Positions 8,436-25,947 of a stretch of 64,000 nt of DNA are shown here, in pieces (within the stretch, counting starts at the first letter, position 1; each line of letters starts with the position of its first letter). Source of the stretch: an uncultured Chitinophaga sp. (GTDB taxonomy: Bacteria > Bacteroidota > Bacteroidia > Cytophagales > Cyclobacteriaceae); NCBI GenBank assembly GCA_902168205.1, contig CABHOK010000007.1, forward strand, positions 310,001 through 374,000. Reading direction: 5' to 3'. The translations under genes were made by a program, and so were the position numbers. The notes beneath the pieces were generated by a model. The model made no database searches and was not told where the DNA came from. It was given only the letters and a program-made list of their open reading frames with translations.

Positions 8436-8437
8436 TT

Positions 8438-9988: not shown

Positions 9989-9998
9989 TTATCTGCAG

Positions 9999-10706
9999 AT
10001 GAGTACAACGCCCCGCCTATCCGCGATTGTTCCCTGCTTCAACCAGGGAAGGTATATAAATTTTTCTATTAACAGCATCACGAATCAAACCATACCGGTT
10101 GATGAGATTATTATAGTGGATGACGGCTCTACGGATACACAAACCACAGCATGGATAAAAAGTTACAACCACCCCAACGTAAAAATCGTCTCCCAGAAAA
10201 ATAGCGGCCCGGCTACAGCGCGCAACAATGGCTATAAGTATTGTAATGGTGACTATATATTACTTCTGGATGCAGACGATATGTTCGAAAGGACTTTCGT
10301 TGAGAAAGCCTGCAATGTCTTATGCAAGCATCCGGAAGTTGGTGCTGTTTCTTCGCATGTTTTAAAATTTGGCGATCAGGACTATACCTGGCACCCTACC
10401 GGTGGAGACGTTGCCGGATTCATGTTAGGTATAAACAGTGTTGCCTGTGGATTGATAAGAAGAACTGCATGGGATAGTGCGCATGGATTCAATAGCGATA
10501 TGCGAGACGGCTACGAAGATTGGGACTTCTGGCTTCGCATAACAAAGGCCGGCTGGCTGGTACATATCCTCCCCGAGATTTTATTCTACTATCGTGCAAA
10601 GAAAGAATCCCGTGTTGTTGATACCATCCGGAAGCACAAAGATCTGTACCGTCAAATTCGCTTCAATCATCCAGATATATTCAGTAAGTATTTCGAAGAA
10701 AATTAA
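9999..10706 (+). CDS. Family 2 glycosyltransferase
   Basis: 235 residues with the complete GT2 GT-A core: LSAIVPCFNQGRYI at the start, DEIIIVDDGSTD around residue 41, the SGPATARNNG nucleotide-sugar motif, the metal-binding Asp91-Ala-Asp93 in LLLDADDMF, and YEDWDFWLRI with the likely catalytic acidic residues. No membrane segment is visible, so it is cytosolic. It sits between the DUF6734-like gene and a GT8 gene with gaps of 10 and 12 bases. Since no polysaccharide assembly genes are nearby and a peptide precursor is 2 kb away, glycosylation of the peptide or of a small acceptor is a reasonable inference, not a demonstrated role. Confidence 0.88.
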   Translation: MSTTPRLSAIVPCFNQGRYINFSINSITNQTIPVDEIIIVDDGSTDTQTTAWIKSYNHPNVKIVSQKNSGPATARNNGYKYCNGDYILLLDADDMFERTFVEKACNVLCKHPEVGAVSSHVLKFGDQDYTWHPTGGDVAGFMLGINSVACGLIRRTAWDSAHGFNSDMRDGYEDWDFWLRITKAGWLVHILPEILFYYRAKKESRVVDTIRKHKDLYRQIRFNHPDIFSKYFEEN

Positions 10707-10718
10707 ACCCCATACGCA

Positions 10719-11573
10719 ATGCGATATACCTATGTAACCATGCTATACTCTGACAACTTTCTTCCAGGGCTGTTGGTTCTACATCACTCCCTGAAAAAAG
10801 CTCATTCGAAATATCCCCTCCTCGTGCTGGTGACGGCAAACGTATCGAAGGACATTATCTTCATGATTACATCGCTTGGCATGCAGACCGAGCGCTTCGA
10901 TTTCATTGTGAATCCGGATGCAACAAAGCCCGCACGATTCCGCGAGATGTATAGCAAATTATACATTTTCGGAATGGAGCATTATGATAAGATCGTTTAT
11001 ATAGATTCCGATATGTTGGTATGCGCCAACATAGACATACTGTTTTCAAAAAAACACTTGTCTGCTGCTAATTCCGGGGGCATGCTTCCCGAGCATACCG
11101 ACTGGAAAGATTTAAATGCCGGATTGCTGGTGGTCGTTCCCAACAGGGCAACGCTAAATGACATGTTATCGAAGATTGATTCTGTCACCTCGTCCGATGG
11201 TGGTGACCAGGGCTTTTTACACTCATACTATCCGAATTGGAGAATGGAAGAAGAGCTTCACCTGGATCATGGCTATAATATGTTTCCAGCCATTCTGGAA
11301 CGCTATCACGAGCTTTTTGGATATACCATAGCCACTCCGTTGGACGATCCTTCTACAGAACGTTTAGTTCGCGTAATTCACTTTTGCGGCCCGACAAAGC
11401 CCTGGGATAAAAGATTTGATTATAAAAATTGTCTTGGTATGAATAGAGTAACGGTTGACCTGTGGAGAAACTGCCTGCATGATTTTCTCAGTTTACTACC
11501 GATCAATGCAGTGCGTTTCTTTCATACTTATGGAGTTCAGGATTTTGTAAAGGATGAAGAGTTGATTGTATAG
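10719..11573 (+). CDS. Family 8 glycosyltransferase (glycogenin/LgtC-like)
   Basis: 284 residues. The start MRYTYVTMLYSDNFLPGLLV, the DxD motif Asp96-Ser-Asp98 in IVYIDSDMLVCANI, the DLNAGLLVV segment and the closing HFCGPTKPWD motif are those of GT8 retaining glycosyltransferases that use UDP-sugars. It is the last gene of the plus-strand unit beginning at 7971 and ends 6 bases from the convergent stop of the radical SAM gene, with no clear terminator between. Self-glucosylating glycogenins of this family act on Tyr; the peptide core here holds four Tyr, an attractive but untested link. Confidence 0.88.
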   Translation: MRYTYVTMLYSDNFLPGLLVLHHSLKKAHSKYPLLVLVTANVSKDIIFMITSLGMQTERFDFIVNPDATKPARFREMYSKLYIFGMEHYDKIVYIDSDMLVCANIDILFSKKHLSAANSGGMLPEHTDWKDLNAGLLVVVPNRATLNDMLSKIDSVTSSDGGDQGFLHSYYPNWRMEEELHLDHGYNMFPAILERYHELFGYTIATPLDDPSTERLVRVIHFCGPTKPWDKRFDYKNCLGMNRVTVDLWRNCLHDFLSLLPINAVRFFHTYGVQDFVKDEELIV

Positions 11574-11579
11574 AGAATG

Positions 11580-12812
11580 TTACTCTACTTCGCTATAGTC
11601 GTTATTCAAAATAGCTACCGCTTCCTCAAATGCAATTGCAGATATACCCGATTCCTCTAACACCTCTGCCGGCAGCGATTCAATAATTCTGTTTTGAATA
11701 TGCGTGATGATTTTCAGCAGATCGTAGCAATATATAGATGGGTTGTTGAAAGCATTTTCTTTACTATACCGGTGCGGCAGGAAACCGCCACCACAAATCT
11801 CCACGATTGGGCACCGCTGGCATTTTGCGCACAGCTGCTTATGACTCAGGTTATACATTTTAACCAAGTCTGTTTCCAGTGCTTCCGACAGTTCGGTTGT
11901 AAAAACGTGCGAATTGTCTTTTGTAAATCCATCACCACAAATCTTCAGTATATCCGAAGTTTCTATACTGCCGTTAGTCTCCACAATAAGCACCTCGTTG
12001 TTTCCTCCTCCGATTTGTTCTGATACAAAATCTTTTCCGAGGAGTCCGTGTATAATATGCCGGAAGAAACGGATGGATACACGGTCTTTAGGATCATTAT
12101 ACCAGTATTCAAAGATTTTGATAAACCAGTCTCCGTATGGCGCGCTGACAGAGCCTATATCTTCTTTGCCGGGGGATGGCTTCTCGTAATTGGCGTCTGG
12201 CAAAAGAAAGTCTATATCACGAGCTCCAATAGTCTTGAAATGATTATAGGTTTCAACCGGATCCGATGCTGCATCCACAACACATAGCACGCCCGGGCGT
12301 TCACGAAGGTCAGTAGAATTCAAGGCAACCTGGAGACCTTTTACGATGTTGTTGTACGATCCTCTTCCGGAATGATCGATCCTGAATTTATCATTCTGTG
12401 CGGGCGTTCCATCCAGACTTACCCCTACATATACATTCAATTCTCCGAATAGTTTACACCATTCATCGTCCAGTAAAACACCGTTGGTTTGTACACTATA
12501 TCTGACGCGTACATGCTCACTCAGCATGCTATTGGCTTTAGCAACAAACTTCCTGTAAAATTCATGTCCCGCCAACAGAGGTTCTCCACCGTGAAAAACG
12601 ATGATAAAAGATTCAAGATTATGCTCCTGACAATGATTCCTGATGCGTAGCAGAAGTGCATCAACAACTTCGTCACGCATAAATTTAGGTTGCTTGCGAT
12701 ACGTTTCATCACCCATATTATACATATAGCAATACGTACAATTTAAGTTACATCGGCTTGCCACCTTTATTACTATCGCACTGCAGCGTAAAATTTCCTG
12801 ATCTTTTTCCAT
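11580..12812 (-). CDS. Radical SAM/SPASM peptide maturase, Fxs (FxsB-like) type
   Basis: About 410 residues from the ATG at 12812. The frame is open further upstream to 12929, but that extension would run across the hairpin and into the precursor gene, so the shorter start (MEKDQEILRC) is chosen. The radical SAM cluster motif is Cys21-x3-Cys25-x2-Cys28 (CNLNCTYC), with the GGEP motif in VFHGGEPLL. The SPASM region near the C-terminus has CAKCQRCPIVEICGGG followed by LPHRYS, NPS and YC, the arrangement I associate with FxsB-type maturases. Members of the Fxs, Xye and GRRM groups install three-residue cyclophanes, a C-C bond from an aromatic side chain to the beta carbon two residues later. The precursor just upstream ends in Phe-Tyr-Ser-Arg-Val, the expected FxSxx substrate. 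Unlike actinobacterial FxsB, no HExxH extension is fused; that domain is a separate gene at 18270. Confidence 0.88.
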   Translation of the reverse strand: MEKDQEILRCSAIVIKVASRCNLNCTYCYMYNMGDETYRKQPKFMRDEVVDALLLRIRNHCQEHNLESFIIVFHGGEPLLAGHEFYRKFVAKANSMLSEHVRVRYSVQTNGVLLDDEWCKLFGELNVYVGVSLDGTPAQNDKFRIDHSGRGSYNNIVKGLQVALNSTDLRERPGVLCVVDAASDPVETYNHFKTIGARDIDFLLPDANYEKPSPGKEDIGSVSAPYGDWFIKIFEYWYNDPKDRVSIRFFRHIIHGLLGKDFVSEQIGGGNNEVLIVETNGSIETSDILKICGDGFTKDNSHVFTTELSEALETDLVKMYNLSHKQLCAKCQRCPIVEICGGGFLPHRYSKENAFNNPSIYCYDLLKIITHIQNRIIESLPAEVLEESGISAIAFEEAVAILNNDYSEVE

Positions 12813-12840
12813 TGCTACTATTTTAGTGTTTAGAATAAAG

Positions 12841-12870
12841 GGACAATGAGATAAGTATATCTCATTGTCC
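12841..12870 (-). terminator. Hairpin between precursor and maturase genes (likely attenuator)
   Basis: A perfect 13-bp inverted repeat, GGACAATGAGATA and TATCTCATTGTCC, with a 4-base loop. It lies between the precursor stop (12880) and the maturase start (12812). On the minus strand it is followed by CTTTATTC rather than a long T-run, so it looks like a partial terminator or RNA-stabilising stem. Such stems between precursor and enzyme genes raise the amount of precursor relative to enzyme. Confidence 0.75.
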
Positions 12871-12879
12871 GGGGAAGGT

Positions 12880-13053
12880 CTATACGCGGCTATAGAATTG
12901 TTGGTAATAGCCTTGTGAATAGGCTGCACTCAGATCAAGTCCTCCTATATAGTTTTTGGCAAGATCTTTAACAGCTTCATTTTTGAATGAATCGATTGAC
13001 TGACGAATCATTTCTGACTGTTTTTTTTCGAGTTTAATCTTCTTGGATTTCAT
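12880..13053 (-). CDS. RiPP precursor peptide, GG leader with FxSxx-COOH tail
   Basis: 57 codons, ATG at 13053 and TAG at 12880-12882. The leader is rich in Lys (MKSKKIKLEKKQ) then amphipathic (SIDSFKNEAVKDLAKNY) and ends in Ile-Gly37-Gly38, a double-glycine site. The predicted core is residues 39-57, LDLSAAYSQGYYQQFYSRV, with four Tyr and one Phe. The last five residues, Phe-Tyr-Ser-Arg-Val, fit FxSxx-COOH exactly, the hallmark of Fxs precursors first described in actinobacteria. The C39 exporter at 20161 would cut after Gly38. Its maturase gene follows after 67 bases with a hairpin between. No Cys is present, excluding lanthionine or thioether chemistry. It is too short for routine gene calling and could be missed. 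The core, cut site and modification are inferred from motif agreement among three separate genes. Confidence 0.85.
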   Translation of the reverse strand: MKSKKIKLEKKQSEMIRQSIDSFKNEAVKDLAKNYIGGLDLSAAYSQGYYQQFYSRV

Positions 13054-13111
13054 GTTGTTTGATTTAATGGTTAAACATAAGTTGATCAGTATGCGGCCTT
13101 ACACTGTCCAT

Positions 13112-13142
13112 CAAATCGACTAATTATATCATGCTTTTACAA
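13112..13142 (-). promoter_or_regulatory. Probable promoter of the precursor-maturase unit
   Basis: Read on the minus strand: TTG (13142-13140), a 20-base spacer, then TCGATTTG (13119-13112), one base off TAnnTTTG. It would give a leader RNA of roughly 50 bases before the ATG at 13053. Nearby (13160-13200) are repeated TATAGC/GCTATA half-sites, including ATAGCA-N6-TGCTAT at about 13177-13194, that could bind a regulator. Confidence 0.4.
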
Positions 13143-13275
13143 TAGCAGCGATTTATCATTTTTATAGCTATATAAAATAGCAAAAACATGCTATAACAAT
13201 TGACTTCGCCAATGCTATAAATTACATTCACATGATCGATTGCATAGTATCCCATTTGTAACCAAACTCCATTGT

Positions 13276-15675
13276 ATGTTAAGTAACCATCTTAAGATTG
13301 CCTTTCGAAAACTAGCAAGCCAAAAACTCATCACGTTTATTCATCTGTTTGGACTCGCGACTGCTATTGCATCGTGTTTTCTGATAACGCTTTTTGTAAA
13401 AGATGAAGTTGGATTTGATCGTTTTCATACTAAAAAGGAGTATATATTCAGAGCCGTGCGCGAACATACATTCAATGGTGAATCTCAGATTTCCGCTTTA
13501 ACAAACGGAGCACTGGCAAGTGCACTGTCGTCCAATTTTAAAGAAATTGAAACATCAACAAGGCTACTCCTCAAAAAAGGAGTCGTTTCTCTCGAGAACC
13601 AGGCTGAGTCTTTCGCAGATCAACAATTGGCTTTTGCAGATTCTAATTTCCTTACTGTTTTCGACTTCACATTAGCGAAGGGTAACGTGCGTGACGCGCT
13701 GTCAAAACCCGGAACCATTATATTGTCCAAACAGACTGCACAACGCTACTATGGAGATGCTGATCCAATAAACAAAACCCTTGTCGTAGACAATCAACAC
13801 AGCTTCCAGGTTGTGGGAGTTCTGGATGCTATACCTACCAATTCGCATATTCATTTTGACGCCCTTGCATCCATGGCGACTTTGTACTCTTCCACACCTT
13901 GGTTAAACGAATGGAGACGCAATAGCATCTATACCTATGTTGTTCTTGATGATCCGGCTTCTGTTGTTACGTTAAATGCTGAAATGCCGAATCTGGTAGA
14001 GAAATATATAGGCAAAGAAGCACGGCAAAATGTAAATTATTATTTCCAGCCGTTGCTATCAATTCATCACGACACGAATGTGGTGAGTAATGCTGAACCG
14101 GCCCGCAGTAAAAAGGTAATATATATATTTGCCTGCGTTGGTCTTTTCATTTTGATCCTCGGCTGTATCAATTACGTTAATCTCTCAACGGCATACTCCA
14201 TGACACGTGCCAAGGAAATTGGTGTACGTAAAACATTGGGTGCAAAGGGTAATGCATTGATTTCACAATTTCTGCAGGAATCCGTACTGGTTGCAATTAT
14301 CAGTGTGGTACTTGCACTTTTGCTTACAACATTGACCCTTCCATTCTTCAACGATCTTTTGGGAAGAAATATACCTTTGTGGTCCAGTATAGATACGACC
14401 ATTACTATACTGGCGCTATCACTAATCATTATTGTAGTGGTGGGCATTATAGCCGGTTCTTATCCTGCGTTTTACCTGACACGGTTTCATCCCGCGCTAA
14501 CATTAAAGGGTAAGCTTCTGCAGTCGTCAAAGGGCTTTTCCTTTCGAAAGGCATTGGTAGTATTTCAATTTTCCGTTACAATCATGTTAATCAGTTCAAC
14601 CTTCATCATCCAACATCAATTGAAATTCATGTCTGGTTCAAACCTGGGATTTGACCAGCACAACCTGATACAGATACCATTGCGCGATCCACTCCTGATA
14701 CGCCAACAGGAATCAATAAAACAATCGTTTTTGCGAAGTACACCGGGTATTACGGGCATCACTTCAGCCGATAATCTTTTGGACTTCACATCTCGCGTAA
14801 ATGCACGTCTATTAGGAAGCAGCGATGAAAATGAAGTTTTACTCTCGCGAATTTCCTGCGATTTCAACTTCCTGAAGACCGTAAAGTTAAAGCTATTGGC
14901 AGGCAGAGATTTCTCCCTTCAAAATCCTGCTGATTCACTTGACGCTATTATCATCAATGCACAAGCCGTCAAAAAATATGGATGGAATACTCCGCAAGAT
15001 GCCTTGGGACATGAGCTGGAAGGTGTACGATTTGGAGCCAACCGCAAGAGTAAAATTATCGGTGTTGTAGAAGATTTCAACTTTGCACCTATGTATAGTG
15101 AGATTGAGCCGCTGTTGATTGTTTGTGAGCCCGGCGAAATACGACACCTCATCATCAGGTTAGCTCCGGAATCTGTCAGCGAATCACTCGCATCGATCAA
15201 AAATACCTGGCAGAATATTTCAGGTATATGGCCCTTTACTTTCGATTTCGTTGATGATAAAATTGCCACGTTCTACCAAAACGACGCAAGACTCGAAAAA
15301 CTCTTCAACACGTTCGTTGTTCTTTCCATTTGTATTTCATGTCTGGGACTTCTTGGTCTTGTGATATTTACTTCAGAAAGAAAAGCCAAAGAATTTGGTA
15401 TCCGAAAAATTCTGGGGGCTGATATGTCCAGTATTATGGGACTTCTCGTCAGAGAATTTATGATTTTGATAATAATCGCGAATGTGATTGCCTGGCCAAC
15501 GGCCTGGTGGCTTATGAGCAAATGGCTTGAGGGGTTTGCATATCGCATTTCCATTGAGTGGTATATATTTCTGCTGGCAGGTGGTATAGCGCTTCTGATT
15601 GCATTACTAACACTAAGCTTTCAGATTATTCGCTCTGCATCCACGAATCCATTAAAGGTTCTTAAATCGGAATAG
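13276..15675 (+). CDS. MacB/FtsX-type ABC transporter permease
   Basis: About 799 residues from ATG 13276 (MLSNHLKIAFRKLASQKLIT); an upstream TTG at 13240 in frame is less likely. The layout is that of Bacteroidota FtsX-like permeases: one N-terminal membrane helix (FIHLFGLATAIASCFLITLF), a large MacB_PCD periplasmic domain, a group of membrane helices at about residues 285-430, a second periplasmic domain and a final helix group, i.e. two FtsX units fused. No ATP-binding domain is present and no partner ATPase gene is nearby. Divergent from the precursor gene and convergent with a GT-B gene, it may export or give immunity to the product, but such permeases are abundant in this phylum and the link is positional. 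The last 14 bases overlap the end of the opposite-strand gene. Confidence 0.88.
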   Translation: MLSNHLKIAFRKLASQKLITFIHLFGLATAIASCFLITLFVKDEVGFDRFHTKKEYIFRAVREHTFNGESQISALTNGALASALSSNFKEIETSTRLLLKKGVVSLENQAESFADQQLAFADSNFLTVFDFTLAKGNVRDALSKPGTIILSKQTAQRYYGDADPINKTLVVDNQHSFQVVGVLDAIPTNSHIHFDALASMATLYSSTPWLNEWRRNSIYTYVVLDDPASVVTLNAEMPNLVEKYIGKEARQNVNYYFQPLLSIHHDTNVVSNAEPARSKKVIYIFACVGLFILILGCINYVNLSTAYSMTRAKEIGVRKTLGAKGNALISQFLQESVLVAIISVVLALLLTTLTLPFFNDLLGRNIPLWSSIDTTITILALSLIIIVVVGIIAGSYPAFYLTRFHPALTLKGKLLQSSKGFSFRKALVVFQFSVTIMLISSTFIIQHQLKFMSGSNLGFDQHNLIQIPLRDPLLIRQQESIKQSFLRSTPGITGITSADNLLDFTSRVNARLLGSSDENEVLLSRISCDFNFLKTVKLKLLAGRDFSLQNPADSLDAIIINAQAVKKYGWNTPQDALGHELEGVRFGANRKSKIIGVVEDFNFAPMYSEIEPLLIVCEPGEIRHLIIRLAPESVSESLASIKNTWQNISGIWPFTFDFVDDKIATFYQNDARLEKLFNTFVVLSICISCLGLLGLVIFTSERKAKEFGIRKILGADMSSIMGLLVREFMILIIIANVIAWPTAWWLMSKWLEGFAYRISIEWYIFLLAGGIALLIALLTLSFQIIRSASTNPLKVLKSE

Positions 15676-16636
15676 ATGATCCATTGCGGGCAAGTCGAAC
15701 TATGGCTGACTCTTTTAATGATCGAACAAAAGTCTCTGTTTGCAAATCATTGCGTGATGGAAATATTCGCAGGTATTCTGAAGTTTGTGCGACAAGCTTA
15801 TCATCCTGTGCCTTACTATTTGCTTCCTCAAGTGACGAATAGTAAAATGGATAGTCATCACCAAGATATTCGGTGACTGCCGGAATCTTGTTTACCAGGA
15901 TCGGTGTGTTGCGTGCTATACATTCGATAACAACGTTATTGGCGTTACTGTCATACAGATCATTAAAAACAATGGAGGAGCATAACAAATCATCGTACAT
16001 GGAATTGGACACATGGTTTACAACCTGCACATTACGCACTTCTGAAGGTGATTTTCCTACGTACTGTAACTCCTGCTGAATATAGCGCAACGTATAAGAA
16101 TTTAGCAGCAGCATTTTATCAAGCCCCGATACATCTAAGTCAAAGAACGATGTAATTCTGCGCATCCACGTGCCCGCATGCAATATTCTGCGGGTATCCA
16201 AGAACTCTTGGTAACTAAAAACTCTAAGCGGAAACTCTGTAGGATGTTTTACGCTGCCAACCGGTATATTAAAACGATTAACTTTTTCGCTTACATATTC
16301 TGCTACATACCGCGATAATGTAAAAATTCCGCGGCAGTTACCGGCACTCTCTTCAAATATTTTACTGGAGAATATTGCATCTATAGGCTTTACATCATCT
16401 GTCGCCCATGGACAGACTGCTATAGTACCGTGTATAAAACCAATCCAGGGGCTCGTATATGGAAGTGTACCTGCTTCAATGAACCTGTCTGCTGCATAAC
16501 CAAAACTAGCGTCAATTGATCCATTAAAAATAGCTCCATCTTCGCTGTGAATTTCGTGCAGCGACTCCAGTGCATATTTCCATCCGCTCCGGTGTTCATT
16601 CCAAACCACCTGGTCACGGTAGTCAATTCTTACCAT
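15662..16636 (-). CDS. GT-B-fold glycosyltransferase (GT4-like)
   Basis: 324 residues, no signal peptide. The N-terminal half has a Rossmann-like start with a WIGFIHGT segment and a GIFTLSRYVAEYVSE helix, and the C-terminal half has the sugar-nucleotide site (SNANNVVIECIARNTPILVN followed by VTEYLG), the usual GT4 end motif with a Glu in place of the EX7E core. The start overlaps the end of the GNAT-methyltransferase gene by 14 bases, so the two are translationally coupled. The 3' end overlaps the convergent permease gene by 14 bases. It is the third or fourth glycosyltransferase of the cluster and the only GT-B one; acceptor unknown. Confidence 0.75.
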   Translation of the reverse strand: MVRIDYRDQVVWNEHRSGWKYALESLHEIHSEDGAIFNGSIDASFGYAADRFIEAGTLPYTSPWIGFIHGTIAVCPWATDDVKPIDAIFSSKIFEESAGNCRGIFTLSRYVAEYVSEKVNRFNIPVGSVKHPTEFPLRVFSYQEFLDTRRILHAGTWMRRITSFFDLDVSGLDKMLLLNSYTLRYIQQELQYVGKSPSEVRNVQVVNHVSNSMYDDLLCSSIVFNDLYDSNANNVVIECIARNTPILVNKIPAVTEYLGDDYPFYYSSLEEANSKAQDDKLVAQTSEYLRIFPSRNDLQTETFVRSLKESAIVRLARNGSSIPI

Positions 16637-18119
16637 AAGAACTTACCTTTTGCAGCGTGAAGTATATAAACGTGTATTGTGTATTGAATTCCTTCCACTC
16701 AACCACTTTATCAACACCATCCAAATGTAGCGGCTCTAACAACTGAAACCCATACGCATTTGCCAGTTGAATTACCGAAGCGATGCTATCGCGGTTAAAT
16801 ATATAGCTTGATGCACCATAGGCGGAAATGTGATCTGTATTTATATAGTCCTCCCAATAATCAGTTGAAATGAATAAATAGCCTTCAGTTTTGATGATAC
16901 GGTTCATCTCCCGGAAGCAGGCATGTAAATCGATTCCATGCTCAATAACACTTAAGCATGTAACGCCATCAAAGTACTCATCATCAAAATCGGTTGCCGT
17001 AATATCGCCTGGCTGGTATATAATTGTGCCCCTGGTACTTTTGATTTTGAAAGCCAGGTTTATACACGTTAAATTTTTATAATTATATGCAGCCAGTTGT
17101 GGGAGTATACTTGAGTAGTATTCTCCTCCGGCGTCTAATATTTTCGCGCGCGTATCGGTATACCGAAGAACCGTAGATAAAGCTGCGAGAGAATCCCAGT
17201 TCTTTGGAAGATCTTCATGAAACGGAATCCCCAGGCATTTACTTTCATCCAACGCGGTTATAAAATCAGTGTCCTTTTTTAGTATACCACTGGCGGGATA
17301 TACAGAAGGATGCATAAGATTTTCCCTGCTGATGTAGTGTGTTGCGCGCGACCAATCATAAACCTTCAGATTGCCAAAATGTGAAAACCCCATCGTGGAG
17401 TATACACCGGCACTACCAGCGGGTGCCTGCAAAACCACAGCACGGACACCATCCGAAAGCGTGCTATGTACCAAAGTCTCTAAAATATACCGAAACAATT
17501 CCATCCTGTTTTCTTCCGGATGTATACCAACAGTCAACACCCAGCTCACATCGCGCGAAACAAGGCAGTTTACAAAAGCCACATCTCCTTTGCTGTTTCG
17601 AAATACAACCATATCAAGGCGAGCATTGCTACTATATGCTTTTAGTGATGATTCAATTTTAGAATATAGTTGCCTGCCTCCAACATTTGCTATCGTTTCC
17701 TTATATAGCTCTATAGTTGCAATATTCTTCCCATGATTAACCGCGATATCCGGAAGCTTTCCAGATGTTCCTGTTCCAGGATCTGTAACACAGAGTATAT
17801 CTTCACTATCCCGTATTACAAAATTTTGCTTTTCGAATCGATTGCTGTCACGATCCTGCTCAACCGAAAAAATCTTTATATAGTGTACATCTTCATCGGC
17901 CAGCAGGGAAGCTACATCGCGATTGAGAATTTCATCATTATTTAAAGGACTAATAAAAACTGTTCGGGTATCAGGCCGGGCAGAAAACCAGGTGAACGTC
18001 TCCTCCTGCCCGGCTAGCAGCCGGTCCGAGGTTGTCTTTGCCTGACAGATTGCTTTCTCCAGCATACAATCATGGATCAGCGATTTTAAATTCTTGACTT
18101 CAGAAGTATATACTGCCAT
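16623..18119 (-). CDS. Fusion of a GNAT-like domain and a class I SAM methyltransferase
   Basis: 498 residues. Residues about 140-255 look like a GNAT acetyltransferase fold, with the terminal GVYSTMGFSHFGNLKVY resembling the Tyr-x-x-x-Gly-Phe motif of the family; the acetyl-CoA loop is not clear. Residues about 325-445 are a class I methyltransferase: motif I KILDAGGEYYS (327-335), the FDGVTCLSVIEHGID motif and the EGYLFISTDYWED strand. Residues 1-130 are unrecognised. It leads a two-gene minus-strand unit with the GT-B gene (14-base overlap) and is divergent from the HExxH gene. In this setting N- or O-methylation, possibly acetylation, of the peptide or of a sugar on it is plausible. The methyltransferase call is firm, the GNAT call moderate. 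Confidence 0.75.
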   Translation of the reverse strand: MAVYTSEVKNLKSLIHDCMLEKAICQAKTTSDRLLAGQEETFTWFSARPDTRTVFISPLNNDEILNRDVASLLADEDVHYIKIFSVEQDRDSNRFEKQNFVIRDSEDILCVTDPGTGTSGKLPDIAVNHGKNIATIELYKETIANVGGRQLYSKIESSLKAYSSNARLDMVVFRNSKGDVAFVNCLVSRDVSWVLTVGIHPEENRMELFRYILETLVHSTLSDGVRAVVLQAPAGSAGVYSTMGFSHFGNLKVYDWSRATHYISRENLMHPSVYPASGILKKDTDFITALDESKCLGIPFHEDLPKNWDSLAALSTVLRYTDTRAKILDAGGEYYSSILPQLAAYNYKNLTCINLAFKIKSTRGTIIYQPGDITATDFDDEYFDGVTCLSVIEHGIDLHACFREMNRIIKTEGYLFISTDYWEDYINTDHISAYGASSYIFNRDSIASVIQLANAYGFQLLEPLHLDGVDKVVEWKEFNTQYTFIYFTLQKVSSYGKN

Positions 18120-18269
18120 ACTATTGTTTTACGAGTTGCCCTAAGTTCAACACCAGAGAAGTTTTAACCGACAACACAGTATGAATAAATTATTCTTCAC
18201 AATTATATTTTTATTCGCGATCGTTTTTGACGGGTTAGGAGGAACCATCAATTTGCCTGTAAAAAAACT
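18120..18269. promoter_or_regulatory. Divergent intergenic region with a 48-codon open frame
   Basis: 150 bases between the methyltransferase fusion (minus) and the HExxH gene (plus), presumably with both promoters. A frame from ATG 18181 to TAA 18327 would encode 48 residues starting MNKLFFTIIFLFAIVFDGLGG, a hydrophobic segment followed by a Gly-Gly, but it overlaps the start of the HExxH gene and its tail has no RiPP character, so I do not call it a gene. Confidence 0.25.
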
Positions 18270-19421
18270 ATGGAAACAATATATGCCCCTACCCTGTCTA
18301 ATATTAAGCTTGGTAAAGACACATTAAGAATGCATTCACAGTCGCATGAAGATAAACACCAGACTATATTGCGGGACTTCAAAGGAGTACTTTTGAAAAA
18401 ATGGAATATGCTGATCGAGCTATTGGAGAAGACCGACACCAATGCTCTGACCAGGCTGCAGGGTAAAATCAGTCAGCTCTCAGAAGATCAGTTTACATTG
18501 ATCATTATGGCTCCCGAAGTAAGCTTCAGACTTTTAAACTTCAACGAGCATAGTGTTGTACTGCTAACAAATTTCATCATCTATAGCATGGACGCTGAAC
18601 TGGCAAAGACGAAGGAAGAATTTGACACGAACTCCTATGAAGAACTCTGGACACCCAATGGAGATTTCTTCATTCGCTACAACAAGAAAGACAAAGAGTT
18701 TGTAACGTATGAACCCTATAAGTTGAATTCGATAACACCCATCGATTTCTTTAGTCCCTATTGTGTAAAGCTGACGAACGATGATGTCAATGAAACGAGA
18801 ACTTCAAAACTACTGCCGTATGATTTTGATGAAGCTGAGTCAATCTGTAATTTACTGGAGGAAACCGTTGAGCCACTCATCGGTGTCAATAACGACTATA
18901 TTAAACTGATCAATCATTTTTCAAGAGTAATTATCTTTAATAAAGTTATTCCTGTTACCGGTCCACCTCCCTTTATCTCAGGCTCTGATGCTCTTCACGT
19001 TGGCAGAACTGTAATTTCGAATCCTACTGATGGAGACCTTGAGAAAATGATCGAGGCGTTAGTTCATGAGTCCATTCACTCAAAACTCTATATGATTGAT
19101 GAAACCAAACGGTGGATGCCGAGCTATGATTTGTCTAACAAAATAGGAAGAGTTATACCATCAAGCTGGACAGGAAATATACTAACACTAAACAGTCTTT
19201 TACAAGCTTGTTTTGTCTGGTATGGTTTGTATCACTTCTGGTCCTATGCTTATCAAAATAATCTGTACAACGAAGAACATGCTGTTGGCCGGATGAATTT
19301 TATTCAGGCAGGGTTCAGGAAGTTTGATGCCAACGAACTCATAACAAAATACAACTTAAAACTTGAGCATGAACTGGCGTTGTGTTTTTCAGAGATCAGG
19401 GAAGAAATGTTAGCGAACTAG
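18270..19421 (+). CDS. HExxH protein, probable alpha-ketoglutarate-dependent peptide beta-hydroxylase
   Basis: 383 residues, no signal peptide, so cytosolic. The motif is His266-Glu267-Ser-Ile-His270 in EALVHESIHSKLY, and the following SSWTGN and LLQACFVWYGLYHFW segments match the pattern I know for the HExxH domain that accompanies Fxs radical SAM enzymes (HE-x-x-HSKL, a Trp-Arg/Trp-Thr segment, then a helical FW region). That domain was long listed as a metallopeptidase-like extension and has more recently been linked to iron/alpha-ketoglutarate-dependent beta-hydroxylation of peptides. Here it is a free-standing gene with the metal motif intact. It begins the plus-strand unit that includes a LuxR regulator, the C39 exporter and the HlyD-like gene. 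Alternative: a true zinc peptidase of unknown target. Confidence 0.7.
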   Translation: METIYAPTLSNIKLGKDTLRMHSQSHEDKHQTILRDFKGVLLKKWNMLIELLEKTDTNALTRLQGKISQLSEDQFTLIIMAPEVSFRLLNFNEHSVVLLTNFIIYSMDAELAKTKEEFDTNSYEELWTPNGDFFIRYNKKDKEFVTYEPYKLNSITPIDFFSPYCVKLTNDDVNETRTSKLLPYDFDEAESICNLLEETVEPLIGVNNDYIKLINHFSRVIIFNKVIPVTGPPPFISGSDALHVGRTVISNPTDGDLEKMIEALVHESIHSKLYMIDETKRWMPSYDLSNKIGRVIPSSWTGNILTLNSLLQACFVWYGLYHFWSYAYQNNLYNEEHAVGRMNFIQAGFRKFDANELITKYNLKLEHELALCFSEIREEMLAN

Positions 19422-19437
19422 GAAATGTAAAAAACGC

Positions 19438-20148
19438 ATGAGCAGAACTTCAAGGAAGGAAATTCTACCACCTGGTTTTAAACGAGATGTGGCCATTCAG
19501 TTTATAGCACACGAGAACTCTTTCTTCGCTTTTGCAACTCAGTTCTTAAGGGAGAATCATATAAATAGTATGTTGTTATCGGGCGATGACAGTGAACAGA
19601 TTCTATCTCAAATCGCACGTACAAACGCTGATGTTACTTTCATTTCAATGCGCGGAAATGCGAATAGCCTTGAATTCTCCAGGAAGGTGAAGCGTGTCAT
19701 GCCACAAACACATTGTGTTGTGTACGTTGATCCGGAGGATTTCAAGTTAGAATATTTAGTAAACTTTAATATAAGTGCATACTTATCCTCAGTCGATCTT
19801 TCACTTACAGAAATCGTTCTGTGTGTAGAGACACTTACGGATGGTTATCGATATATAGGGTCTCAAATCCGCGAATCGTTAGCGAAGGTAAATGAGTTTG
19901 AGTTCGACCTGACATACCAGGGTTTCAACCTGACAAAGCAGGAAATTGTTATACTGAACTTGCTTGCCAAAGGGCTTCGCTCCAAGGATATATCAGACCG
20001 GCTGTTCATTAGTCAGAACACATTGAACAATCACAAAACAAACATAAAGAGCAAGCTCAATCTGATGAGCAATCGGGAAATAGTTTTTTTTGCCATGAGA
20101 AACGGTCGGCAACCGAAAAATATTCAAATCGAAAATCCTGACGTTTAA
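19438..20148 (+). CDS. LuxR-type regulator with degenerate receiver domain
   Basis: 236 residues. The C-terminal LuxR HTH (about 160-225) is complete: LTKQEIVILNLLAKGLRSKD followed by ISQNTLNNHKTNIKSKLNL. The N-terminal 130 residues have the receiver fold order, but the position of the phospho-acceptor Asp is Ser (DVTFISMRGNAN where an active receiver has hydrophobic-Asp-x-x-Met-Pro). It therefore probably works without phosphorylation, as other atypical response regulators that sense a ligand or protein. Sixteen bases follow the HExxH gene and 12 precede the exporter, so it is an internal member of the export operon and likely a pathway-specific regulator, perhaps responding to the peptide itself. 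Confidence 0.85.
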   Translation: MSRTSRKEILPPGFKRDVAIQFIAHENSFFAFATQFLRENHINSMLLSGDDSEQILSQIARTNADVTFISMRGNANSLEFSRKVKRVMPQTHCVVYVDPEDFKLEYLVNFNISAYLSSVDLSLTEIVLCVETLTDGYRYIGSQIRESLAKVNEFEFDLTYQGFNLTKQEIVILNLLAKGLRSKDISDRLFISQNTLNNHKTNIKSKLNLMSNREIVFFAMRNGRQPKNIQIENPDV

Positions 20149-20160
20149 TAAAATCCAAGT

Positions 20161-22362
20161 ATGATTTTCAACACTGGGAAGTTTCCTTTTTTTAAACAGT
20201 ATGAGCAGTCTGATTGTGGCATAGCGTGCCTGCGGATGATTGCGAAATACTATGGAAAGGAATATAGGCAGGAGGATTTAACACGACACGTGATCGTTAA
20301 TCGTATTGGTATATCTATTTATGACCTCTCTACCGTTGCCGACAAGATTGGATTTCGCTCCCTCGGAATTGAAACCTCGTGGAAGAATTTAATGACGGAA
20401 GTCCAATTACCGGCAATAGTACATTGGGACGGTGATCACTTTGTGGTGGTCTATAAAATCACCGGCAGCAAAATATATATAGCAGATCCCAGAATTGGCT
20501 TATGCCAATATACTCATGCCGAGTTTTGTATGCACTGGTTGCATCATAAAAAAGAAAACACAAGTCGCGGTGTCGTATTATTGTTAGAACCGTCTCCAGA
20601 CTTTTTCAGCAGTAAGCACACTGCAACCAACCAGAATAAAGCCAGCCTCGGCTTCATTATCAAGAACTCGCTAAAGTTTCGTTTTCATTTTCTCCTGTTA
20701 ATTGTTGGACTGTTGCTTGGCAGCTTACTGCAACTGTTTATACCCTTCATCACGCAGTCCATTGTGGATCTTGGTATAATTCCTCAAGACATTGATTTCT
20801 TACGCATAATCATCCTGGCACAATTGTTTGTCTTTGTAAGTATTACCATTGTTGATTTCCTGCGCACGTGGATTCTCATTCACATCAGTAGTCGAATGAA
20901 TGTTTACATTATATCCGACTTTCTGATGAAGCTTATGAGTCTGCCCATTCATTTCTTTGATACAAAAACAAAGGGAGACATTATGCAGCGCATCCAGGAC
21001 CATGAGCGTGTGCGCTCCTTTCTAACTGATACGTTGCTAAAAAGTTTGTTTTCGCTATTCAGCATTGTTGTCTTATGCACCGTTCTGGCGGCCTATAACT
21101 TCTGGATCTTTACTGCTTTTTTATTACTCACCGTGCTGGAAATGACATGGATCTTCATCTTCCTCAAACACGTACGGAAGGTTGATAATGAAAGCTTTGT
21201 ATATATGGCTGAAGAGCAAGGCAAGCTTCACGAGTTAATAAGTGGAATCAATGAGATCAAACTTCATAATGTAGAGCAAAAGAAACGGTGGGAATGGGAG
21301 TATATACAATCAAAACTTTTTAAGGTAAACCTGAAGCGTTTAAGACTCAACCAGCGTCAAGAGGGAATTGCGCGTACTACCAATTATTTACTGGTTGTAG
21401 TTATTAATTTCATAACCGCTTCGTTGGTATTGGAAGGGAAACTATCACTTGGATCGATGCTGGCTGTCACCTCCATCCTGGGATTGTTAAATGTACCTGT
21501 AACGCAGCTTATCAATTTTGTGCTGCGCGGCCACATAGCCAAGATGAGCCTGGAACGGATGGGACAAATTCATGCGCTTGACAGCGAAAACAAAACTTAT
21601 GGATCCGAAAAACAGTTGCCTGCAGACAGAAGTATATATTTTACAAATGTCGGTTTCTCTTTCGGTGACGACTCATCAAGCTTTGCTTTAGATAACATAA
21701 ACCTTACTATACCTGCCGGAAAAATAACAGCTATTGTTGGTTTAAGCGGCAGCGGAAAGACTACGTTGATTAAGTTACTACTCAAATTCTATGATCCGCA
21801 GCACGGATCTATCCGTGTAGGTCACACAGATCTGAGGGAAATTCAAAGTCCGTTTTGGAGAGCTCACTGTGGTGCTGTGTTACAGGATGGATTTATCTTT
21901 TCAGACAGTATAGCGTCTAATATAGCTTTGGCTCCCAGCATTAGTTACGAAAGACTTAAAACAGCGACCGAGATTGCCAACATTCATGATTTTATAGCGT
22001 CACTTCCGCAAGGCGTTCACACGAAAATAGGACCAGACGGTATCGGCCTGAGTCAGGGACAGAAGCAACGAATCCTGATTGCAAGAGCGGTATATAAGAA
22101 TCCGGAATACCTGGTATTTGATGAAGCTACAAACGCACTCGATGCCCAGAATGAACGCATCATCATGCGCAACCTGGAGAAATTCTACCAGGGAAGAACA
22201 GTAATAATTATAGCGCACCGGCTAAGCACCATCAAGCGCGCAGATCAAATTGTATTGATTGAAAATGGTAAGATCAGTGAATCAGGCACGCATATAACAC
22301 TCATTGATAGTAGGAGTAAATATTATTCACTGGTCGAAAGTCAAATGGAAGTAGTCTCTTGA
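20161..22362 (+). CDS. Peptidase C39-containing ABC exporter (PCAT)
   Basis: 733 residues in the usual three-part order. Residues 1-145 are a C39 peptidase with all active residues: oxyanion Gln13-region, Cys19 in QSDCGIACL, His93 in WDGDHFVVV and Asp109 in IADP. Residues about 165-450 are six membrane helices. Residues about 490-730 are the ATPase with Walker A GLSGSGKTTL, signature LSQGQKQR and Walker B YLVFDEATNALD. Such transporters remove GG-type leader peptides while exporting the core. The only GG-leader peptide gene seen nearby is the Fxs precursor at 12880-13053, which makes this its processing exporter. It is followed after 10 bases by a small HlyD-like gene. Confidence 0.95.
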   Translation: MIFNTGKFPFFKQYEQSDCGIACLRMIAKYYGKEYRQEDLTRHVIVNRIGISIYDLSTVADKIGFRSLGIETSWKNLMTEVQLPAIVHWDGDHFVVVYKITGSKIYIADPRIGLCQYTHAEFCMHWLHHKKENTSRGVVLLLEPSPDFFSSKHTATNQNKASLGFIIKNSLKFRFHFLLLIVGLLLGSLLQLFIPFITQSIVDLGIIPQDIDFLRIIILAQLFVFVSITIVDFLRTWILIHISSRMNVYIISDFLMKLMSLPIHFFDTKTKGDIMQRIQDHERVRSFLTDTLLKSLFSLFSIVVLCTVLAAYNFWIFTAFLLLTVLEMTWIFIFLKHVRKVDNESFVYMAEEQGKLHELISGINEIKLHNVEQKKRWEWEYIQSKLFKVNLKRLRLNQRQEGIARTTNYLLVVVINFITASLVLEGKLSLGSMLAVTSILGLLNVPVTQLINFVLRGHIAKMSLERMGQIHALDSENKTYGSEKQLPADRSIYFTNVGFSFGDDSSSFALDNINLTIPAGKITAIVGLSGSGKTTLIKLLLKFYDPQHGSIRVGHTDLREIQSPFWRAHCGAVLQDGFIFSDSIASNIALAPSISYERLKTATEIANIHDFIASLPQGVHTKIGPDGIGLSQGQKQRILIARAVYKNPEYLVFDEATNALDAQNERIIMRNLEKFYQGRTVIIIAHRLSTIKRADQIVLIENGKISESGTHITLIDSRSKYYSLVESQMEVVS

Positions 22363-22372
22363 ACTTGCCTCT

Positions 22373-22792
22373 ATGAACAATACAAACACTGAAGAAGAGC
22401 TCATGGGTAAAATTCCTGTTTGGGTTGGCACTGTGAGTACCTGGGTATTTATCGCACTGTCCTCGCTTTGTATATTTTGGTTTTTCATCTACAAATTCAA
22501 TACGCGGCAAAAAGGAATATTTACCCGTATTGATTCGTCTTATGTATTATTTGAGTGCAAGGCAAATGGTGACTTTACGTTTAATAAAAAAGAAAATATA
22601 GTACTTACCATTGACCGTCATACTTTTATATCCAGTATAGATAGTATGTATAGTCGGGGAAAAATGCACTATATTATTTTTCAGATGAAGCAGCAATCCT
22701 ATTTTAGCGGACAACAGTATACAGGAACTATCCATCAGAAAAATGCAACGTTCTTCGAAAAGCTTACTGCATTGGGTGATAACAAACACTAA
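22373..22792 (+). CDS. Small HlyD-like membrane partner of the exporter
   Basis: 139 residues. An N-terminal cytosolic stretch (NTNTEEELMGKIPVWVGTVS) leads into one membrane helix (WVFIALSSLCIFWFFIYKF), then about 90 residues of beta-rich sequence outside the membrane. The KIPVWV-helix layout is that of HlyD-type adaptor proteins that pair with PCAT exporters in Bacteroidota, but the normal protein is about 400 residues with a long coiled coil. Here only the membrane anchor and the equivalent of the beta-barrel domain remain. It is not an obvious frameshift product, since the frame is open from ATG to stop and the downstream 98 bases hold no continuation. It may be a minimal adaptor, an accessory subunit or an immunity protein. 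Confidence 0.6.
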   Translation: MNNTNTEEELMGKIPVWVGTVSTWVFIALSSLCIFWFFIYKFNTRQKGIFTRIDSSYVLFECKANGDFTFNKKENIVLTIDRHTFISSIDSMYSRGKMHYIIFQMKQQSYFSGQQYTGTIHQKNATFFEKLTALGDNKH

Positions 22793-22890
22793 CCTTCAAG
22801 AACGAAAAAACGAAGTAGTCTCTCTCACATGCTATTTCCAACCTGTACTAACGAATTTTAGGCTGAATCCTTAATCGGTTCATTCTAAGT

Positions 22891-23229
22891 CTAAGCAACT
22901 TTAAACTGAAGAGCGATCTTGGGTATCTTGTTAAAGAGCTCATTGCGCATTTCATTCGTTTCTTCCAGAGCACGTTTACCGGCAGCCGTCAGCAGGAAGA
23001 GTCGCTTACGGCGTCCGCCACGCTCGCTCGTGGGGTCGCCCATTTTTGAAGTCACCAGGTTCTTATCTTCGAGACGTTTTAATACCGTATGCACGGCACT
23101 GATGTTAAGACTACGCCCCGTCTGTCGTTCGATCTCATCCATCACAGCAACACCGTAGGCATCTTTATATAGCACACCAACCGTAAGCAATACTAATTCT
23201 TCAAGTTCTCCTAAATATGTTCCTTTCAT
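22891..23229 (-). CDS. PadR-family transcriptional regulator
   Basis: 112 residues: LGELEELVLLTVGVLYKDAYGVAVMDEIE and onward is the classic PadR winged-helix opening, with the wing in GGRRKRLFLLTAAG. It is typical of PadR regulators that accompany FtsX-like permeases bearing an N-terminal prefix domain. Here it lies 11 bases downstream of such a permease on the same strand, rather than upstream as is more common. It probably represses its own unit. No sign of a link with the peptide cluster other than adjacency. Confidence 0.92.
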   Translation of the reverse strand: MKGTYLGELEELVLLTVGVLYKDAYGVAVMDEIERQTGRSLNISAVHTVLKRLEDKNLVTSKMGDPTSERGGRRKRLFLLTAAGKRALEETNEMRNELFNKIPKIALQFKVA

Positions 23230-23240
23230 ATACTATATAT

Positions 23241-25874
23241 CTACTCTCGTTTTAACACGTCTGCCGGGTTCACGTTTGCCACCCGTATAGCCTGGTAGCT
23301 TATCGTAAAGAAAGCTATTGCCGCTGCTATAATTGCCGACAACCCAAATAACCATCCATTTATATTTACCCGGTAGGCAAAGCTCTGCAACCATTGTGTC
23401 ATCAGGAAGTAAGCCACTGGCAACGCCACCAGTATAGCGATCAGAATCATGCTGAAGAAATGACGCGAGAATAATACAAAGATGTTTGCTGTTGAACTAC
23501 CCAATACTTTTCGGATGCTCATCTCCTTCTTGCGTTGCTCGGCCGTAAATGTAGCCAAACCAAACAATCCCAGGCATGCCACCAATATAGAGAGAGCAGA
23601 GAAAACGATGGTAACACGACTCATCTTTGTCTCGGCCTTATAGAGTTTCTCCAGGTCATTTCTGAGGAAGAAATATTCAAATGGCCATCCGGGTATCTGC
23701 GCTTTCCATTGTTTGGCAAGCCAATCGATAGTGCCGGGAATGTCATTGCCCGTAATGCGTACAGCCATATACTTGATGCGAACATCAAATGCCCGGGGCG
23801 TTGTATTCAACTGCAGTATCAGGGGACGGATAGGATTATGGCGTGACGTAAAATTAAAATCCTTTACCACACCAATGATGCGATGGGTAGCGCTGTTGTC
23901 GAACGTTTTACCTATAGCCTCTTCGCTGGAAGCCCATCCCATTTGTTTCACAAACGTTTCATTTACGATCAGCGACAATGAATCATCGGTCTTTATATCT
24001 TCAGAAAAATCACGGCCGGCAACAATAGGTATATCAAATGTCTCAGCAAAGTGATGTCGTACAGTCAGGCGTGGAAATGGTCGTGATTCATGCTGCCCTT
24101 CAAATATATAGTTACCCACCTGGTGTTTCGCTCCCAATATTTCTTCAAGCGCTGTTACACTGACGGTATTTTTATTTCGTAAGAATTCATTCTCCACTGC
24201 CTGATAATTTGTTGCCACCGGTGAACGTGTAACCGGGATCATGATAACATTCTCCTGCGTAAAACCTGTATCGCTTTTTCGAAGCATCCGCAGTTGATCT
24301 ATAGCTACACCAGTTCCGATCAATAATATAATAGACAATGTAAACTGAACGATCACCAGGCCTTTACGAAAAGTACCGCCTGACTGAGAATTGATGCTTG
24401 TCTTTAATGCCGTAATCGGTTTGAAACCGGAAAGCACAACGGCAGGATAAAGGCCTGCAGCCACTCCTACTCCTATGGGAAGCAGTGTAAGAAGCGTTAA
24501 ATAAAAAGGTTCGAGTAATGCCATCGGTGTTACATTCATTTCAGTAAATGCATTGAACATCGGAAGCAGTAGCAGCACCAGTGTGATCGCAATGACTACG
24601 GAAAGTACACACAGCAGTATAGATTCAAAGAGGAATTGTCCTACCAGTTGAAACCGCTGGCTTCCCAGCGTCTTGCGCATGCCCACTTCTTTGGCCCGCT
24701 TGGCAGCACGTGCTGTGCTCAGGTTGATGAAGTTTATGCAGGCAATGAGCAAAACAAATATACCTATAGAACCAAAGATATATAGTGTAGTCAGACTGCT
24801 GTTAGGTTGTATCTCATAATCCAGGTGTGATTTCAGGTGTATATCCGTGAGCGGAAACAATTCCAGCTTTACATCTTCCCGAACAAACTCTGGGAAGTGT
24901 TTTTTTACAAAGGCAGGCATGGCAGCTTCCAGGTAGGGCGCATCACTCGCATCGCGGAGCAACAGGTATGTCCAGCAGGGGTTCCAGTACCAATGCCAGT
25001 TTTGTGGTGTACGTGGATCATAAACCTGATCAAGCGTGCGGAAAGACATCAAGCCATCGAATTGAAAGTGTGTGTTCAGCGGTATATCTTCCAGTATACC
25101 TGTTACCAACAAATTTGTATTACCCTGAAACCTCAGATATTTACCTATAGCATGCTCGCTTCCAAAATACTTCCGCGCCATACTTTGCGTCAGTACAATG
25201 GTTTCGGGTTTATCAAGAGCTGTTGGATCTCCCTCAACGAATTTATAGTCGAAAACGTCAAAGACTGTACTGTCAGCACAGAATAATCGTGATTCATTAA
25301 ACTCCTTGGTATTATCAATCGTGGCCATGGCCAGTGTAGGAGCCTGAAAATTGAAGAATCGTACCGCGCTCAAAATTTGCGAACCATGATCCGTTAACAA
25401 CGCTTCGGCTACTGGAAACGGTTGACTGGCCGAGTGCTCTCCTACTCCATCGGATTGCAATACTTCATGCACGCGGTATATACGGTCTGCTTTGGTATGC
25501 ATCCTGTCGAAACTATACTCGTTGCGTATATATAGACTTATCAACAGAAAGCAGGTAACGCCAATGGCAAGACCAAATACGTTTAAAAAAGAATATCCTT
25601 TTTCACGCACGAAACTGCGCTTGAATACAGAGAAGTAATTTCGATACATCATAAAGTTTGGGCTGGATTGGTTGGATGATCGTTTGATATTAGACCATTT
25701 AAAGAAGCGTAGTATATTCCAGGTGTATTGCCAATCGGCTATATGTTGCCCGTGATTCTTCAGGGCACGGACATAGAGTTCGTAAGCATCGCCCTGAATT
25801 TCTTCCAGCAATGCAGGATTGCAATACCACTCCAAAAATCTACTAGCCCATTTAGGCGGTGAGACCCTGTTCAT
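23241..25874 (-). CDS. MacB/FtsX-type permease with N-terminal prefix domain
   Basis: 877 residues. The first about 75 residues (PKWASRFLEWYCNPALLEEIQGD and onward) are the permease prefix domain found in PadR-linked transporters of Bacteroidota. Then come a membrane helix (FLNVFGLAIGVTCFLLISLY), a MacB_PCD periplasmic domain, a helix bundle around residues 380-520, a second periplasmic domain and a final helix bundle ending NVNPADVLKRE. It is about 80 residues longer than the permease at 13276 because of the prefix. No ATPase gene is adjacent. Substrate unknown; relatives are often involved in efflux of toxic or peptide compounds. Confidence 0.92.
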   Translation of the reverse strand: MNRVSPPKWASRFLEWYCNPALLEEIQGDAYELYVRALKNHGQHIADWQYTWNILRFFKWSNIKRSSNQSSPNFMMYRNYFSVFKRSFVREKGYSFLNVFGLAIGVTCFLLISLYIRNEYSFDRMHTKADRIYRVHEVLQSDGVGEHSASQPFPVAEALLTDHGSQILSAVRFFNFQAPTLAMATIDNTKEFNESRLFCADSTVFDVFDYKFVEGDPTALDKPETIVLTQSMARKYFGSEHAIGKYLRFQGNTNLLVTGILEDIPLNTHFQFDGLMSFRTLDQVYDPRTPQNWHWYWNPCWTYLLLRDASDAPYLEAAMPAFVKKHFPEFVREDVKLELFPLTDIHLKSHLDYEIQPNSSLTTLYIFGSIGIFVLLIACINFINLSTARAAKRAKEVGMRKTLGSQRFQLVGQFLFESILLCVLSVVIAITLVLLLLPMFNAFTEMNVTPMALLEPFYLTLLTLLPIGVGVAAGLYPAVVLSGFKPITALKTSINSQSGGTFRKGLVIVQFTLSIILLIGTGVAIDQLRMLRKSDTGFTQENVIMIPVTRSPVATNYQAVENEFLRNKNTVSVTALEEILGAKHQVGNYIFEGQHESRPFPRLTVRHHFAETFDIPIVAGRDFSEDIKTDDSLSLIVNETFVKQMGWASSEEAIGKTFDNSATHRIIGVVKDFNFTSRHNPIRPLILQLNTTPRAFDVRIKYMAVRITGNDIPGTIDWLAKQWKAQIPGWPFEYFFLRNDLEKLYKAETKMSRVTIVFSALSILVACLGLFGLATFTAEQRKKEMSIRKVLGSSTANIFVLFSRHFFSMILIAILVALPVAYFLMTQWLQSFAYRVNINGWLFGLSAIIAAAIAFFTISYQAIRVANVNPADVLKRE

Positions 25875-25947
25875 ATATCTTCCACAAACGTGAAAGTAAT
25901 ATGATATGTTTCATGTTTGTGGATAAAATATATGAATCAGAAAGAAA

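Follow-up and report, generated by a model that had tools for sequence, protein, structure and literature searches.

A candidate triceptide locus in a Chitinophaga genome with predicted Tyr-x-Gln/Arg staples, a ChlH/SjiH-like oxygenase and Gly-Gly-directed export

Triceptides are ribosomally synthesized and post-translationally modified peptides (RiPPs) with three-residue cyclophanes, formed by taking a hydrogen from an aliphatic residue, followed by attack on the ring (PMC12257519; here and below, statements on published work refer to the accessible portion of each source). The partner residues given in PMC11002830 are Arg, Asn, Asp, Ser and Ala, with Gln and Glu not among them in that portion, and YhhB links Tyr and His to the Cβ of Arg (PMC11002830). 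In darobactin, the partner residue is Lys (PMC9055067). The HExxH part of ChlB installs β-hydroxyls on Asp and His, and this hydroxylation depends on a preinstalled cyclophane; PflC and PosC hydroxylate strings of Gln residues and also cut the backbone (PMC12636437). Here we analyze positions 11580-22792 of a 64,000-nucleotide stretch (the window) of contig CABHOK010000007.1 from an uncultured Chitinophaga sp. (phylum Bacteroidota). The region encodes a 57-residue peptide with a Gly-Gly (GG) leader, a radical S-adenosylmethionine (SAM)/SPASM maturase, a HExxH protein, a LuxR-type regulator, a C39 exporter and a 139-residue protein. We read the locus, with a probability of roughly 0.7, as a three-residue-cyclophane RiPP system with Tyr-x-Gln/Arg staples, an oxygenase resembling ChlH and SjiH, and GG cleavage on export. 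The original prediction of a Bacteroidota cyclophane RiPP cluster with GG-leader export stands, but its "Fxs-type" label does not, as the maturase missed the FxsB cut-off and its placement in the FxsB/HaaB clade was rejected; with that label lost, the Tyr-x-Gln/Arg reading replaces it.

The best matches of the window maturase and HExxH protein in the Protein Data Bank (PDB) were the ChlB radical SAM domain (9gm3/9gmc) and the HExxH domain ChlH (8s5f), respectively. The two functions are fused in Chl, whereas they are encoded by separate genes in the window, and Gln312 of the window protein stands where ChlH has His; SjiH also has Gln there. The locus resembles YhhAB in that NF041707 was the best NCBIfam match of the maturase, Y54-S55-R56 of the peptide matches the Tyr/His-x-Arg unit, and two YhhB proteins used in the comparison carry a C-terminal HExxH region. 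It differs in that the maturase scored 74 bits under the YhhB cut-off, the YhhB sequences lie across a 99/99 branch of our tree, Gln occurs besides Arg at position +2, and the three YhhA peptides examined have no GG site. As for Fxs, TIGR04269 was the second-best NCBIfam match, and one FxsB-annotated locus (L058) has a HExxH gene beside the maturase; however, the window maturase is under the cut-off and outside the FxsB/HaaB clade, and the F-x-S of the window is not found in its nearest relative, a locus from a Chitinophaga metagenome-assembled genome (L031). The likeness to PflC and PosC from Pseudomonas is by description only and consists of an oxygenase of the HExxH class with a RiPP precursor as its substrate and of Gln residues, which are also present in the window core; no radical SAM maturase appears among the pfl genes listed in the accessible portion of PMC12636437.

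The maturase gene (11580-12812, minus strand) encodes a CNLNCTYC motif and a C-terminal Cys set. Its frame is listed from a GTG at 12929, overlapping the precursor, but translation probably starts at the ATG at 12812, which gives 410 residues. The three best NCBIfam matches, YhhB (NF041707, 370.8 bits, cut-off 445), FxsB (TIGR04269, 357.5 bits, cut-off 370) and XyeB (225.7 bits), are all cyclophane maturases, and the match to ChlB (9gm3) had an E-value of 5e-74. YhhB scored above FxsB in each of seven relatives' maturases scanned, and none of the eight proteins, window included, passed either cut-off. The maturase is not an anaerobic sulfatase maturase, an assignment that would have counted against the original prediction; the candidate was rejected at 197.8 bits against a TIGR03942 cut-off of 349.45.

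In a tree of 37 maturases, from which three long outgroup rows of an earlier tree had been dropped, 24 Bacteroidota sequences including the window were split from 13 others at 99/99. The latter comprise FxsB, HaaB, YhhB, cyanobacterial and Rhizobium sequences, plus Bacteroidota L053, L054, L056 and L057. The window grouped (98/95) with L031, whose maturase is 56-57% identical, and with L032 from a Spirosoma plasmid. The hypothesis that the window, L031 and three FxsB/HaaB sequences form one clade, fixed before the approximately unbiased (AU) test but after the earlier tree was known, was rejected (p-AU 0.000235). Among 395 genomes of the phylum, seven besides the window's own encode a close maturase relative (E 1e-94 or better), and all seven belong to the window's clade. 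None of the NCBIfam models used claims this Bacteroidota clade above its cut-off. In phage records, the top five matches to the L031 maturase were 24-28% identical.

The precursor gene (13053-12880, minus strand) encodes, as originally described, a 57-residue peptide with a GG leader and a literal FxSxx tail, F53-Y54-S55-R56-V57. The leader (residues 1-38; 12940-13053) ends in Tyr-Ile-Gly37-Gly38 and aligns with the leaders of L031, L035, L051 and L052; it is followed by the core LDLSAAYSQGYYQQFYSRV and the stop codon (12880-12939). The peptide matched no NCBIfam or Pfam family and is about 50-53% identical to that of L031. Four of the five aromatics in LDLSAAYSQGYYQQFYSRV have Gln or Arg at +2, which 0.1% of shuffles reach, the exception being Phe53. 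In the precursor alignment, Tyr54-Ser55-Arg56 lies opposite YSR of L031 and L026, and Phe53 is replaced by Ser in both; L031, which reads TYSQSYSRS, has SYSRS where the window has FYSRV. Shuffling the 19-residue core produced a Phe at -5 together with a Ser at -3 in 0.8% of cases, and any aromatic at -5 with that Ser in 4.4%.

The peptides beside related maturases point to a common spacing. For each of 30 maturases we took the same-strand open reading frame (ORF) of 45-140 residues whose end lies nearest the maturase start, within 400 bases, and counted its last 30 residues; 27 maturases had such an ORF, giving 25 distinct peptides. Gln, Glu, Arg or Lys was found at +2 of 48 of the 72 aromatics, a value reached by none of 5000 shuffles, compared with 7/72 at +1 and 12/72 at +3. 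Ser occupied +2 in 3/72, below the shuffle mean of 9%. Some rule-based picks (L031, L021, L022, L038) look like wrong-frame or chance ORFs, L054, L056 and L057 lie outside the clade, and the shuffle tests take no account of kinship between peptides. In 20 cores picked by eye, some with trimmed N-termini, the same four residues stood at +2 of 49/59 aromatics (0/2000 shuffles); this set drops the near-duplicates L022, L023, L027, L029 and L052 and excludes L038 and L053 (no convincing candidate), L039 (a misfit) and L054 (mixed). The clearest cases were the Chryseobacterium series YAQS-YSQS-YTEH-YGQS-YSRQ, YTESTYVRR in L036, WTQ and WTK in L034, and YDR and FLR in L035. YhhA peptides from plasmid-borne YhhB clusters show Y-D-R, H-H-R and H-N-R, in agreement with the published Tyr/His to Arg Cβ links of YhhB (PMC11002830). 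Because aromatic-x-[Gln/Glu/Arg/Lys] prevails in the relatives' peptides and Ser at +2 is rare, the FYSRV tail is best read as Tyr54-Ser55-Arg56, like the Tyr-Arg link of YhhB; from the same rule and the alignment with YSQ/YSR of L031, Tyr45-Gln47 and Tyr49-Gln51 are further likely staples.

Two sets of loci deserve separate mention. Mucilaginibacter sp. SG564 (L021, 3684-11221; also L022 and L023) has a set of three related maturases, two encoded in tandem, and several near-alike GG-leader peptides with GTFSR or GTFSK. In L056 (7351-10691) and L057 (8756-11192), whose maturases are outside the window's clade, a HExxH gene is nearby and the peptides consist of repeated FDR/FNK or FSR units.

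The least improbable of the alternatives is that of the original prediction, an Fxs system whose FxSxx C-terminus has Phe53 joined to the β carbon of Ser55. It is consistent with the literal FYSRV tail, with an FxsB score (357.5 bits) just short of 370, and with the F-x-S of peptides neighboring FxsB-annotated maturases (FNS in L058, FSS repeats in L065), L058 also having a HExxH gene. Nevertheless, we consider it improbable and reject it as a reading of the tail, as the FxsB/HaaB clade was rejected (p-AU 0.0002), Ser at +2 is rarer than the shuffle mean, and the nearest relative lacks the Phe. Moreover, the expectation that relatives would have FxSxx-ended peptides beside the maturase was not borne out: none of the 26 rule-chosen small ORFs upstream of 29 other maturases ends in this way (the L038 ORF ends in YPSLY).

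The HExxH protein (18270-19421, plus strand, 383 residues) is free-standing and of the α-ketoglutarate (αKG)-HExxH type, as anticipated, with HESIH at residues 266-270. A phmmer search retrieved ChlH (8s5f) at 2.6e-4, and a profile built from eight HExxH relatives linked the family to ChlH (5.9e-22) and SjiH (9e-12). Foldseek with a weak AlphaFold model ranked four ChlH chains and then SjiH at the top, with a TM-score of about 0.4, the best match being 8s5f (2.7e-4). Gln312 replaces the His of the ChlH LLHA motif; Gln is also found in L031, L057 and SjiH, and His in L056 and others. The L031 homologue reached 37.1 bits with TIGR04267 (cut-off 40). Both family searches proposed at the outset gave matches, TIGR04269 at 357.5/370 bits and TIGR04267 at 33/40 bits, but missed the cut-offs.

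HExxH is a metallopeptidase motif, and the protein could instead trim or cut the peptide, with the maturase stapling as proposed. We regard this as slightly less probable still than the Phe53-Ser55 link. Its score below the TIGR04267 cut-off is compatible with such a role, as is the hydrolysis by the related PflC of its own peptide when the leader is absent (PMC12636437); however, the solved relatives ChlH and SjiH come from RiPP oxidation systems, the ChlH entry is titled an alpha-ketoglutarate-dependent oxygenase, and leader cleavage is already provided for by the C39 exporter. HExxH genes were also seen in other settings. In the Chitinophagaceae loci L082 (4210-8619) and L084 (4648-8016), they lie by small ORFs and large enzyme genes other than a window-type maturase. 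In the Rhizobium plasmid loci L050 (2709-6634) and L063 (1010-5273), a free-standing HExxH gene accompanies a radical SAM gene, and in L063 the 632-residue upstream protein contains many MHGQTHS/MHDQTHS units.

The exporter (20161-22362, plus strand) has the Pfam domains Peptidase_C39 (109.4 bits), ABC_membrane and ABC_tran, and the expected Cys-His-Asp set is in place: Cys19, His93 and Asp109, which we take to be the catalytic residues, sit in SDCG, GDHF and ADPR. With C39 and ABC domains in the exporter and a GG site in its presumed substrate, the protein is a predicted peptidase-containing ATP-binding cassette transporter (PCAT). In L038 (7313-8442), the match to the C39 exporter is spread across two frames, and that cluster may be damaged.

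In L031, the regulator, peptide, maturase, HExxH and exporter genes are co-oriented and occupy 5.7 kb (8938-14650), with identities to the window of 36%, 53%, 57%, 35% and 47%, respectively. This recurrence in another member of the phylum, together with the strong matches of the maturase, HExxH protein and exporter, indicates that the gene set is not a chance grouping. Among 21 relative loci with a close maturase, of which 20 are in the tree's clade (L022 is not in the tree), an exporter homologue was found in 14 and a HExxH homologue in one (L031), some of the loci being short. Across 294 Chitinophagaceae genomes, the maturase had matches in eight (1e-60) and the HExxH protein in ten (0.001, four of them above the cut-off); five had both (hypergeometric P 7.6e-7), with the two genes at most 0.9 kb apart in all five. 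As a query, the window HExxH protein matched one of 395 genomes of the phylum (its own) and one of 79 of L031's genus (L031's own), so the pairing with the maturase is rare within the clade. A search with alignment A2 found one of 390 genomes of the order (again its own), and the sole plasmid match to the HExxH protein was a 31% identical stretch in Rhizobium etli.

Several observations weigh against our interpretation. The maturase is below the cut-offs of both the YhhB (by 74 bits) and FxsB models, and the HExxH protein, at 33 bits, misses the TIGR04267 cut-off of 40; its AlphaFold model is weak (predicted local distance difference test score 64.2, predicted TM-score 0.51). In the DNA examined, a HExxH gene lies beside the maturase in two of the 24 clade members (the window and L031), and the maturases of the other HExxH-maturase pairs, including those of the five Chitinophagaceae genomes apart from L031, fall outside this clade. 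The +2 rule is broken by some peptides (YVW and WST in L039, YTP and YDT in L032, YKP in L021). Finally, unlike in L031, the five shared genes of the window are split into two opposite-strand halves by permease, glycosyltransferase-like and methyltransferase genes.

The genomic setting suggests an accessory block. Positions 6750-25944 had no DNA match in 20-40 kb pieces from four same-genus genomes, and both flanks match one of these four (G001, contig 156) at 85-93%, in rearranged order; we therefore take the interval as an accessory block of about 19 kb. Six same-genus genomes gave no maturase match at 1e-30 or better, and two other genes of the block were absent from 28 relatives at the thresholds applied. 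That the locus is a rearranged remnant of an acquired cluster with lost expression, as the unmatched block and the interruption of genes contiguous in L031 might suggest, is the least probable of the alternatives, as none of the five shared genes has an interrupted reading frame and the inspected motifs are intact.

Between the two halves lie an FtsX/MacB-type (ADOP) permease (13240-15675, plus strand), a glycosyltransferase-like protein with weak matches only and no Pfam match (15662-16636, minus strand), and a protein with a C-terminal methyltransferase domain (16623-18119, minus strand), found among 29 genomes in its own genome only. Their membership in the pathway is doubtful, since none of the three has a homologue in L031. 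The glycosyltransferases, methyltransferase and two permeases that had been proposed as pathway parts are unsupported as core components: blastp found no homologue in the relative loci searched at 1e-5 or 1e-4. Three YhhB clusters on alphaproteobacterial plasmids (L068, L069 and L070) each have a GNAT-family gene and a family 2/A glycosyltransferase gene downstream; the best match of the window GT2 protein to these glycosyltransferases (4.9e-5, 26% identity) is ordinary for that superfamily. The LuxR-type regulator (19438-20148, plus strand) has a GerE domain and no receiver domain by Pfam, and its homologue starts the gene row of L031. The 139-residue protein 3' of the exporter (22373-22792, plus strand) has at the equivalent place in L031 a 176-residue protein of dissimilar sequence. 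A 13-bp hairpin with a T-rich tail (12841-12870, minus strand, -20.1 kcal/mol) separates the precursor from the maturase and may be an attenuator; by such loose criteria the region has 12 terminator-like sites, and shuffled sequences have 8.1 (sd 3.1). Rfam gave no matches in 7000-26000, and no tRNA genes were found within the window.

In the pathway that we propose for the Tyr-x-Gln/Arg reading, the LuxR-type protein would control the genes, and the hairpin may help to keep the 57-residue precursor in excess over the maturase. The maturase, presumably after recognizing the leader, would abstract a β-carbon hydrogen from the third residue of aromatic-x-[Gln/Arg] and bond that carbon to the ring, a mechanism borrowed from work on triceptides, with sites suggested by the relatives. 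The three staples, most likely at Tyr45-Gln47, Tyr49-Gln51 and Tyr54-Arg56, would probably be followed by oxidation of the stapled core by the ChlH/SjiH-related HExxH protein. As its motifs and the GG site suggest, the C39 exporter would cut after Gly38 and release a 19-residue product, whose expected mass is about 2252.02 Da when triply stapled, with 15.99 more per added oxygen. A secreted peptide acting on neighboring bacteria is our default guess for its role.

A broader proposal, to which we would give slightly less than even odds, is that the Bacteroidota maturase clade staples aromatics to the β carbon of Gln, Glu, Arg or Lys at +2, and that in the window serial Tyr-Gln and Tyr-Arg staples are made, after which a separate Gln-for-His variant of ChlH/SjiH oxidizes the stapled core before GG-directed export. 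Radical SAM cyclophanes, αKG-HExxH oxygenases and GG/C39 export have all been described before; we take their joint occurrence with this maturase clade and its residue rule to be a new variation on a known type. Staples between Tyr and Gln or Glu would, as far as the open literature shows, add a link type to those described. In the open-access literature, which did not extend to the primary triceptide, ChlH and SjiH papers, we recognized no paper describing the clade. A 2026 review on outer-membrane antimicrobials reportedly names xenorceptide. The words cyclophane and triceptide are absent from the accessible portion of a study on Bacteroidales RiPP mining (PMC10352776), and the bioactivities of triceptides were called not yet elucidated in 2025 (PMC12257519).

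The predicted bond thus shifts from Phe-Ser to Tyr-Gln/Arg and yields a testable aromatic-x-[Gln/Glu/Arg/Lys] rule for the Bacteroidota maturase clade. If the reading is true, the range of residues stapled by cyclophane maturases would be wider, the exported products would be open to activity assays, and the maturase and HExxH genes would be a natural pair in which to examine whether stapling precedes oxidation.

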